Source of the DNA: an uncultured Pelagibacteraceae bacterium
Lineage (GTDB): Bacteria > Pseudomonadota > Alphaproteobacteria > Pelagibacterales > Pelagibacteraceae
Reading direction: 5' to 3'
Length of the DNA stretch: 64,000 bases
Assembly: GCA_902632445.1 (NCBI GenBank)
Contig: CACPCL010000001.1
Location: forward strand, 1 to 64,000
The notes below the pieces were generated by a model. That model was not told the origin of the DNA. It ran no database searches and saw only the letters and a list, made by a program, of their open reading frames with translations. Shown one piece after another: positions 25,542 through 52,904 of this stretch (position 1 is the stretch's first letter; every line of letters starts with the position of its first letter). A program made the position numbers and the translations under genes.

Positions 25542-26014
25542 TGAAAACAAATATAGGTCCTGGTCAAAAAATAATTTGTTTAAATAGAAAAGCTAGCTTC
25601 AATTATTTTTTTATTGAAATCTTAGAAGCTGGTATATCTCTAAGAGGATCTGAAGTAAAATCACTTAGAGATGGCAAAGGGAGTATTGCAGATTCATATG
25701 CCGTAGATAACAATGGAGAATTATTTTTGATAAATTCTCACATACCTCTGTATAGACAATCCTCATATAACAATCATAACCCAAAAGGTGATAGAAAATT
25801 ACTTCTTAAAAGAAAAGAAATAAATAAACTCATAGGAAGAATTAACCAAGAAGGATTAACATTAATACCAACAAAGATGTATTTTGTTAAAGGAAAAGTA
25901 AAAGTTGAAATAGCGGTAGCTAAAGGTAAAAAACTTTATGATAAAAGACAAACAAAAAAAACAAGAGATTGGAATAGAGAAAAAGCCAGATTGTTAAGTA
26001 AAAATAACAAATGA
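25541..26014 (+). CDS. smpB: SsrA-binding protein
   Basis: [47 protein letters not shown]. Confidence 0.95.
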
Positions 26015-49165: not shown

Positions 49166-50106
49166 TGTCAATAGACGCAAAATTTTTAAATCTTTTTATT
49201 AAAGCGACAGAGAAAGCTGCCATCGGCGCATCTAAATTTATAGGAAAAAATGATAAAATCGGTGCAGATAAAGGTGCCGTAGATCCAATGAGGAGAGAAT
49301 TAAATAAAATTAACATGGAAGGAACAATCGTAATAGGTGAGGGTGAAATGGATGAAGCGCCTATGCTTTATATAGGAGAAAGGTTAGGTACTTTAAATGG
49401 ACCAAAATTTGATATCGCTGTTGATCCACTTGAGGGAACTAAGTTTACAGCTAACAATCAACCGAATGCGTTTTCTGTTTTAGCTGTAGCTAATAAAGGA
49501 GATTTATTATCTGCCCCTGATACTTATATGGAAAAAATTGCTATTGGATCAGGAATGCCAAAAAATTTATTAGATTTAGATTACGGTATTGAAAAAAATA
49601 TGAAATTATTAGCAGACGCCAAAAATGTTGATGTTTCAGAACTTACAGCTTGTGTTTTAAAAAGACCAAGACATAAAGAAGTTATTAATATACTTGAGCA
49701 AATGAAGGTCAAAATAAATTTTATCACTGATGGTGATATTGCAGGAGTGTTAAGTGTAATAGGAAAAAATCCTAAAAATGATATTTATTATAGTACTGGG
49801 GGCGGGCCAGAGGGTGTTTTAGCGGCAGCTGCACTCTCATGTTACGGTGGGCAAATACAAGGTCGATTAGTTCTTGATGAAGAAGAAAAAACTAGAGCTA
49901 AAAAACTTGGTATAAAAGATTTCAGAAAGAAATATAATATAGAAGATATGATTAAAGGAGACGTAATTTTTTGTGCAACAGGTGTCACTTCTGGAGATTT
50001 AGCAAAAGGAGTTAAAGACTTAGGTAATGAGTATGAAGTTACGACATTTGCTCTTCATAAAAGTAAAAAAATTAATAAAATTTTTACAAATATTTATAAT
50101 AAATGA
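49165..50106 (+). CDS. glpX: Fructose-1,6-bisphosphatase class II
   Basis: GIGEGEMDEAPMLYIGE-type motif; AVDPLEGTKF; GGGPEGVLAAAAL. Confidence 0.96.
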   Translation: MSIDAKFLNLFIKATEKAAIGASKFIGKNDKIGADKGAVDPMRRELNKINMEGTIVIGEGEMDEAPMLYIGERLGTLNGPKFDIAVDPLEGTKFTANNQPNAFSVLAVANKGDLLSAPDTYMEKIAIGSGMPKNLLDLDYGIEKNMKLLADAKNVDVSELTACVLKRPRHKEVINILEQMKVKINFITDGDIAGVLSVIGKNPKNDIYYSTGGGPEGVLAAAALSCYGGQIQGRLVLDEEEKTRAKKLGIKDFRKKYNIEDMIKGDVIFCATGVTSGDLAKGVKDLGNEYEVTTFALHKSKKINKIFTNIYNK

Positions 50107-51887
50107 ATTCACTTTCCGTAAGTAATAAAAGTTGGATTTTAAAAGGATATGATCGGGACGATGTTACATTTTTTAAAGATAGCTTTTCTTTAGACGAAAT
50201 AACTTCAAAACTTTTATCAATAAGAAAGATAAAAAAAGATGAAGTTAAGGGTTTTCTCAATCCTTTAATTAAAAATTATCTACCTGATCCTAACATATTG
50301 GTTGATATGGAAAAATCTTCCAAAAAAACTTCTGAAGCAATTAAAAAAAATTTTAAAATAGGAATTTTTGGTGATTATGATGTCGACGGAGCTTCATCAA
50401 CTGCTTTACTTGGAAATTATTTTAATTCTCTAGGTTTAGATTACAAAACTTACATTCCTGATAGGAAAAAAGAAGGATATGGCCCTTCTATAAATGCCTT
50501 CAAATATTTTATAGAAAGTGATGTAAAACTAATTTTTACAGTTGATTGTGGTACTTTATCATTCGAAGCTATGAATTTTGCTTGTGAAAATAATATTGAT
50601 GTGATTGTTCTTGATCATCACCAATCTGAAATTAAATTACCAAGAGCTTATTCAATTGTTAACCCAAATAGAATAGATGATAAGTCAAATTTAAATTATT
50701 TATGTGCTGCGGGCGTTACTTTTATGTTTTTAGTTTCTTTGAATAAAGAATTAAGATTAATTGATTGGTTTAAGAAAAAAAATATAAAAGAACCTAATTT
50801 GATAGAATTTTTAGATTTAGTAACATTAGGGACAATATGTGATGTTGTTCCGTTAATTGGTCTGAATAGAGCGATTGTATCTCAAGGTCTTAAAATACTA
50901 AGAAATAAAAAAAATCTAGGTCTAAAAACTCTATTAGATATTTGCGGTATTGAAAGTCATCCAAATATTTATCATGTAGGGTATATTTTGGGACCAAGGA
51001 TTAACGCGGGTGGAAGAGTTGGAAAATCTTCTCATGGAGCAAACTTATTACTTAATAATAACCCCAGGGATGTTTTTAAATTAGCAACAGAATTAGATCA
51101 TTTCAATAAAGAAAGACAATTTCTAGAAAGAGATGTTTTAGATAAAATTGAAAAAGAAATTGAAATAAATTACTCAGATCCTGTAATTATTATCAGCGGA
51201 GAAAATTGGCATGAAGGTGTTATAGGTATAGTAGCATCTAGAATCAAAGAAAAAACAAATAAACCTGTAATTATTATCTCAATAGATGAAAACATTGGTA
51301 AAGCTTCAGCTAGATCTGTAGCCGGTTTTGATATCGGATCTCTAATTATTGCTGCTACTCAAGAAAAAATTCTGATTAAAGGTGGAGGACATAAAATGGC
51401 CGGAGGATTTTCAATAAACATAAACAATATTGATAAATTTAAAAAATTTATTTTTAAAAAATTTAATAACATTAACAAAGATTTATCAAAAAAGAAGATA
51501 TTATATTTCGATAGTATAATTGCTCCTTCAGCGATTAATCTTGATTTTTACAAAAAAATAAATTGTTTAGCTCCTTTTGGATCTGGCAATCCTGAGCCAA
51601 AATTTGTTATTGAAAATTTAAAAGCGGTAAATAATAAAATTATAAAAGATAAACATATTAAATCTGTTTTAATAGGCGCAGAAGGCTCAATTATTAAAAC
51701 TATTGCATTTAATTCTACTGAAAATGAAATAGGCGCATATTTGCTTAAAAAAGATCCAAAACCATTTAATATTGCTGGAAAATTATCCCTAAATGAATGG
51801 CGGGGGCAATCAAATGTAGAGTTTATTATCGATGATATTTCTGTTAATAAGACTTTCAAAAATATGGTCCCATCGTCTATCGGTTAG
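50103..51887 (+). CDS. recJ: Single-stranded-DNA-specific exonuclease RecJ
   Basis: IGIFGDYDVDGASSTALL; VLDHHQSE; GPRINAGGRVGKSSHG; KGGGHKMAGGFS. Confidence 0.96.
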   Translation: MNSLSVSNKSWILKGYDRDDVTFFKDSFSLDEITSKLLSIRKIKKDEVKGFLNPLIKNYLPDPNILVDMEKSSKKTSEAIKKNFKIGIFGDYDVDGASSTALLGNYFNSLGLDYKTYIPDRKKEGYGPSINAFKYFIESDVKLIFTVDCGTLSFEAMNFACENNIDVIVLDHHQSEIKLPRAYSIVNPNRIDDKSNLNYLCAAGVTFMFLVSLNKELRLIDWFKKKNIKEPNLIEFLDLVTLGTICDVVPLIGLNRAIVSQGLKILRNKKNLGLKTLLDICGIESHPNIYHVGYILGPRINAGGRVGKSSHGANLLLNNNPRDVFKLATELDHFNKERQFLERDVLDKIEKEIEINYSDPVIIISGENWHEGVIGIVASRIKEKTNKPVIIISIDENIGKASARSVAGFDIGSLIIAATQEKILIKGGGHKMAGGFSININNIDKFKKFIFKKFNNINKDLSKKKILYFDSIIAPSAINLDFYKKINCLAPFGSGNPEPKFVIENLKAVNNKIIKDKHIKSVLIGAEGSIIKTIAFNSTENEIGAYLLKKDPKPFNIAGKLSLNEWRGQSNVEFIIDDISVNKTFKNMVPSSIG

Positions 51888-51940
51888 GACAGTTGGTTTT
51901 CATCCAACAAAGAGGGGTTCGATTCCCCTTGGGACCGCCA
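51866..51940 (+). tRNA. tRNA-Glu (anticodon TTC), CCA encoded
   Basis: GGTCCCATCGTCTATCGGTTAGGACAGTTGGTTTTCATCCAACAAAGAGGGGTTCGATTCCCCTTGGGACCGCCA. Confidence 0.97.
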
Positions 51941-51947
51941 AAAATTT

Positions 51948-52904
51948 ATGAAAAAAATTGCTGTTATTGAAAATATTCATAAAGATGGTTTGGATTTATT
52001 AAATACTAATAAAGATTTTAAGTATGAATTAATTACAGACGTATCAGAGGAAAATCTAATAAAAAAACTACCAGAATTCGATGCTTGCACATTAAGAGTT
52101 TCAAAGCTCGGCGAAAATATTCTTAAACACTGTTCTAAATTAAAAGTTATTTCAAGGCATGGAGTAGGTTATGATAATGTAGATTTAGCCTATATTAAAA
52201 AAAAAAATATCACGCTTTTAATTACAGCTACCGCTAATGCAGTAGCTGTTGCTGAGCATGTTATCTGTATGATGCTTGCCTTATCTAAAGGCTTAAGTTC
52301 GTATGATTATGAAGTAAGATCTGGAAATTTTAAGCAAAATGCATCTAATATTGAAACTTTAGAATTATACAATAAAGAAATATTGATTGTAGGTTTCGGA
52401 CGAATAGGAAAAAGTTTAATTAAGAGGTGTTTAGGCTTTGAAATGAAGGTAAATATTTTTGATCCTTATGTTTCAACTGAAGTAATAAAAAGCTTTGGAG
52501 GGAATAAGATTGAAAATTTAGATAATGGAATTCAAAGCTGTGATTATTTATCGTTACACACACCTCTAAATGACAAAACAAAAAATATGATAAATTATTC
52601 AAAGCTTAAAACAATGAAAAAAAATGCTGTTATAATAAATACTTCAAGAGGAGGTATAATTAATGAAATTGATTTAAATAAAGCATTGAATGAAAATATT
52701 ATATTTGGTGCAGGGTTAGACGTATTTGAAAGAGAACCTATAGATGAAAATAATCCATTGAAAAAAAATAAAAAAGTTTTGCTGAGTCCGCATTCAGCTA
52801 CTTTTACAAATGAATGTAAGTCTAGAATGTCTATTGAAACTACAAAAAATATTATTGATTTTTTTGAAAATAAATTGGATAAGTCTATGATTGTAAGACT
52901 ATGA
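51948..52904 (+). CDS. D-isomer-specific 2-hydroxyacid dehydrogenase (phosphoglycerate-dehydrogenase-like)
   Basis: ILIVGFGRIGKSLIKRCLGF; NTSRGGIINEIDL; SPHSATFTNE. Confidence 0.88.
   Translation: MKKIAVIENIHKDGLDLLNTNKDFKYELITDVSEENLIKKLPEFDACTLRVSKLGENILKHCSKLKVISRHGVGYDNVDLAYIKKKNITLLITATANAVAVAEHVICMMLALSKGLSSYDYEVRSGNFKQNASNIETLELYNKEILIVGFGRIGKSLIKRCLGFEMKVNIFDPYVSTEVIKSFGGNKIENLDNGIQSCDYLSLHTPLNDKTKNMINYSKLKTMKKNAVIINTSRGGIINEIDLNKALNENIIFGAGLDVFEREPIDENNPLKKNKKVLLSPHSATFTNECKSRMSIETTKNIIDFFENKLDKSMIVRL

Follow-up and report, generated by a model that had tools for sequence, protein, structure and literature searches.

A recJ reading frame that ends inside tRNA-Glu in two genera of the Pelagibacterales, with a putative tRNA promoter in the 3′ codons of recJ

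The window (the whole stretch of 64,000 nt that was analysed) carries on its forward strand recJ, a gene of DNA repair, followed in close succession by a tRNA-Glu gene and a further protein-coding gene; the first two of these share sequence. The recJ CDS (50103–51887) encodes 594 amino acids, and its reading frame can be taken as real because the DHH, DHHA1 and RecJ_OB domains are all matched in it by Pfam, the last of these ending at residue 578. It closes with a TAG (51885–51887) that occupies positions 20–22, in the D-arm, of the tRNA-Glu gene (TTC anticodon, CCA encoded; 51866–51940), which was recognised by ARAGORN and by Rfam (RF00005, 59 bits, E 3.3e-10). The CDS stop is therefore found past the mature 5′ end of a tRNA on the same strand, and the sequence, the list of open reading frames, ARAGORN and Rfam all concur in an overlap of 22 nt (51866–51887), as the initial annotation of this DNA had proposed. 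What lies within the tRNA is the stop preceded by six sense codons (VPSSIG) and, at the 5′ edge, the third base of a Met codon, rather than the last seven codons counted in that annotation; similarly the next CDS (51948–52904, forward strand), which encodes a protein of the D-isomer specific 2-hydroxyacid dehydrogenase family, begins at an ATG 7 nt past the CCA and not 8 nt. With recJ overlapping it upstream, this CDS close downstream and no terminator-like site found on the forward strand of the chain, the tRNA is indeed embedded in a CDS–tRNA–CDS arrangement. No second tRNA-Glu was found in the source genome (835 kb, 80% complete). As a separate observation, a CDS starts 3–10 nt past the CCA at seven of the 23 tRNAs of this genome (at the tRNA-Glu adjoining recJ, the stretch 51941–51948), so that 3′ processing of these tRNAs would yield mRNAs almost without a leader.

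Every recJ mRNA that extends as far as its stop codon includes part of the tRNA, and a cut by RNase P would thus turn it into a non-stop mRNA. Rescue of such an mRNA requires tmRNA together with its partner SmpB, and both are encoded in the source genome: smpB lies within the window at 25574–25996 (forward strand), where its presence had already been pointed out, and tmRNA at G000:C17:6855-7153. It had been suggested on these grounds that recJ and tRNA-Glu are made as one transcript on which RecJ output competes with tRNA maturation, the non-stop product of RNase P being cleared by tmRNA–SmpB. The geometry of the locus demands such a conflict for any transcript that the two genes share, and the rescue components are in place.

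The age and spread of the overlap were assessed by locating RecJ homologues across genomes of the order and reading their 3′ junctions, an alignment that the initial annotation had named as a check. In genus g1 and its sister genus g9 there were 64 readable junctions (two pairs of rows being identical in recJ), and the exact 22-nt overlap is present in 55 of them. In the remaining nine the recJ stop is in the leader or at the tRNA boundary: in five the stop immediately precedes the tRNA (overlap 0), in three the overlap is 1 nt, the TAG being divided across the boundary as TA and G, and in one the stop lies 9 nt upstream. In the outgroups the recJ stop is found 11–78 nt upstream of tRNA-Glu (11 nt in g12, 14 nt in g11 and 35–78 nt in g5–g8 and family f2), with the exception of two broken g6 loci, of which one has a long recJ–tRNA gap (L129) and the other no tRNA nearby (L118). 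Since the outgroup junctions stop upstream, the overlap is, on the junction sequences, the derived state. A recJ tree from which the last 30 codons were omitted places approximately seven changes between overlap and upstream stop inside g1 and g9, although this count is soft, as the tree came from a quick search without bootstrap. Parsimony alone gives these changes no direction, and it is the outgroup state that favours, as the simplest account, one origin of the overlap with several later reversals.

The source assembly is fragmented and of draft quality, and an assembly artefact or purely local drift might be thought to lie behind the overlap. Against this, the same 22 nt recur in junctions from many assemblies, including named single-cell genomes, which leaves such an origin exceedingly improbable; local drift and assembly error were rejected because many genomes show an overlap of precisely 22 nt. 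An upstream stop in relatives had been named as the mark of a local drift artefact. Such stops do occur in the nine g1 and g9 junctions as well as in the outgroups, but the overlap itself extends through the clade and is no local artefact.

The 3′ codons of recJ contain two short blocks that are more strongly conserved than the rest of the gene. In a codon alignment of the 64 recJ genes of g1 and g9 (median amino-acid identity 68%), codons 573–575 (GAG TTT ATT) are identical in 64/64 rows and codons 580–583 (TCT GTT AAT AAG) are nearly invariant; upstream in recJ, merely 3 of 356 codons for conserved residues are invariant. Synonymous constraint reaches 1.0 and 0.85 in the two blocks, against 0.57 in the four codons between them and a gene mean of 0.12, and no upstream window matches the constraint of either the first (0/354) or the second block (0/353). 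The codons kept include otherwise uncommon ones, GAG accounting for 22.5% of Glu codons and AAG for 13.8% of Lys codons. The amino acids at these positions are also fully conserved, and the codon conservation might partly have another cause. The first block, GAGTTTATT (51819–51827, forward strand), holds the −35-like hexamer TTTATT (51822–51827), and the second, TCTGTTAATAAG (51840–51851, forward strand), resembles an extended −10 element, in that a TG (51842–51843) stands one base 5′ of the hexamer TAATAA (51845–51850). The two hexamers are separated by 17 nt, and from this spacing transcription of the tRNA is predicted to start at an A at −8 (51858, forward strand; invariant in the 64 rows), which would give an 8-nt leader. 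What is found, then, is a pair of blocks constrained beyond coding need and set at promoter spacing, as in an intragenic promoter, and they are very probably the promoter of tRNA-Glu, placed within recJ. With such a promoter of its own, the supply of the tRNA would not have to depend on recJ transcripts. When the recJ ends of the outgroups were tested in this way, no comparable constrained block was detected; in these genomes the spacers before tRNA-Glu often contain TTGATA or TTGATT together with an AT-rich −10; TTTATT differs from the outgroup TTGATT by one base. A scan with consensus promoters did not list the site, TTTATT and TAATAA being poor fits to the E. coli consensus, and in a genome as AT-rich as this one the scan was uninformative.

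One genome (G021) separates the constraint from the coding sequence. Its recJ gene, matched over residues 1–581, now terminates 938 nt 5′ of tRNA-Glu, and of the former recJ 3′ end just a remnant still adjoins the tRNA; ∼0.94 kb of different sequence, which appears to be coding in part, lies between recJ and the tRNA (L146). From −50 to −21 the remnant matches its relatives at 97–98%, whereas from −120 to −61 the match falls to 33–65%, relatives among themselves agreeing there at 68–87%. At this single locus it is the constrained block, by its sequence match, that is retained with the tRNA, and not the RecJ coding sequence. A block that stays with the tRNA, is AT-rich, lies near the tRNA 5′ end and matches the consensus promoter poorly could also be an element acting at the RNA level, for instance an entry point for RNase E or a structure in the leader that assists tRNA maturation. 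Two blocks at −35/−10 spacing with a more relaxed spacer suit a promoter better, a promoter-like pair precedes the same tRNA in the outgroups, and the tRNA would otherwise be without a promoter of its own; an RNA-level element is thus considered quite unlikely.

The extension of RecJ into the tRNA does not appear to be under strong constraint. The tail lies beyond the RecJ_OB domain, and the leader-encoded residues 584, 585 and 588 are widely variable. Among the 43 distinct leaders of g1 and g9, a stop is present in the recJ frame in nine and in the other two frames in seven and 11, and as the recJ frame is not poorer in leader stops than the others, the position of the recJ stop looks near-neutral. 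These roughly equal frequencies, together with the repeated moves to an upstream stop, mean that neither the frame-wise stop counts nor the tree give any sign of selection keeping the overlap or the conflict that it entails. A limit on the stop position is nevertheless suggested by small numbers. Frames 1 and 3 of the tRNA-Glu in the window are open over its whole length, so that most frameshifting indels in the leader (65–76%) would carry the RecJ frame on through all of the tRNA; in all six genomes with shifted leaders, which probably represent at least three events, the leader contains a stop, where ∼22% would be expected per single-base insertion. Whole-tRNA run-through may be what bounds the stop.

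These observations bear on the proposed competition within a single transcript. The geometry and the presence of tmRNA and smpB stand, and the overlap is old and common; the indications of a separate tRNA promoter, a near-neutral stop whose state changes about seven times on the tree, and recJ-frame stops that are not depleted all weigh against it, and as an explanation of the overlap it appears unlikely. As there is no sign of selection keeping the overlap, a regulatory role is disfavoured, and conserved genome compaction, rather than a regulatory switch, is the likely nature of the arrangement. It is likewise unlikely that in g1 and g9 SAR11 bacteria RNase P routinely makes full-length recJ mRNAs non-stop and that trans-translation thereby sets the RecJ level according to tRNA processing; were this true, one tRNA gene would provide both a stop codon and the means of its removal.

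The explanation that we consider probable is that tRNA-Glu has its own promoter inside recJ and that recJ, whose stop was lost as the genome was compacted, makes use of the UAG of the D-arm. In the ancestor of g1 and g9 the spacer between recJ and tRNA-Glu would have been compressed from the 35–78 nt seen in most other genera, where it apparently houses the tRNA promoter, and recJ would have lost its own stop in the process. The recJ frame would now cross the relocated promoter (TTTATT-17-TAATAA, with a start ∼8 nt 5′ of the tRNA) and continue 22 nt into the tRNA, the fixed UAG of the D-arm serving as a borrowed stop. Most tRNA-Glu would be transcribed from within recJ, and the RecJ tail would be a by-product close to neutral. 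Transcripts that span the whole of recJ probably make up only a small fraction; on each of them translation and RNase P processing would be mutually exclusive, and tmRNA–SmpB could rescue ribosomes from those that RNase P has cut.

CDS–tRNA adjacency, mitochondrial tRNA punctuation and intragenic promoters are already known as kinds, and the locus resembles each in part. In animal mitochondria, CDSs and tRNAs abut or overlap, excision of a tRNA can remove the end of an mRNA stop codon, and stops of the common transcript are completed by polyadenylation. The likeness lies in the abutment or overlap and in the loss of the stop end on excision; at recJ, by contrast, the stop lies wholly within a tRNA that is probably transcribed from a promoter of its own. 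Bacterial intragenic promoters occupy the 3′-terminal part of the preceding gene and are marked by synonymous constraint, both of which hold for the putative promoter in recJ, but this one would serve a tRNA and has apparently moved from an intergenic to an intragenic position between related genera. In gene pairs of the secG-leuU type the stop of the protein gene is, as far as is known, upstream of the tRNA, and the mRNA therefore stays whole after cleavage, whereas the recJ stop is inside the tRNA. Such E. coli mRNA–tRNA operons (Mohanty and Kushner 2008, listed in PMC3985628) are alike in that a protein gene and a tRNA are adjacent on one strand and are separated by processing. Compression of spacers to the point where neighbours share between a few and some tens of nucleotides is also a feature of compact bacterial genomes such as that of Ca. 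P. ubique, in which the median intergenic length is 3 nt and CDS overlaps of several nucleotides are frequent (PMC2704228). The difference from these same-strand overlaps is that the second gene is a tRNA, and because RNase P cuts at its mature 5′ end, both products cannot come from one processed recJ–tRNA transcript. In the parts of a limited open-access literature that could be searched, which are not proof of absence, neither a precedent for a bacterial CDS stop inside a tRNA gene nor a SAR11 start-site map providing one was recognised; as far as that literature shows, the clade-wide combination of a tRNA-borrowed stop and a relocated tRNA promoter would be new. It would represent a case of the extreme of streamlining that extends through a large clade of small-genome marine bacteria (SAR11), in which the 3′ codons of recJ apparently hold a tRNA promoter and the body of the tRNA supplies the stop. 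As some close relatives have a stop immediately 5′ of the tRNA and others lack it, the locus also offers a natural system for the contest between ribosome and RNase P on one RNA.

Some further observations concern other tRNA genes and the 3′ side of tRNA-Glu. In 20 of the 23 tRNAs of the source genome (L001–L009 and L064–L077) frame 2 contains a stop that starts at or before position 22, usually the UAG at U8-A9-G10, where ∼6 would be expected from shuffled sequences, and on this basis tRNA genes can provide a fallback stop to the gene upstream. At a second locus of this genome (L073; G000:C9:1000-4700), an ORF of 340 aa overlaps tRNA-Ser(GGA) by 1 nt, with its stop divided as TA and G across the boundary. 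An exact scan for the tRNA-Glu 3′ end in viral contigs found none. In four genomes the 3′ part of tRNA-Glu (∼36 nt) is repeated 1.2–3.1 kb downstream (L141 in G017, L142 in G023, L143 in G007 and L144 in G012), and these repeats bound small cassettes without a recognised integrase, two of them in tandem in L143. The proteins of the other cassettes tested are without a Pfam match, and the cassette of L142 encodes a Z1-domain/ResIII-like protein.
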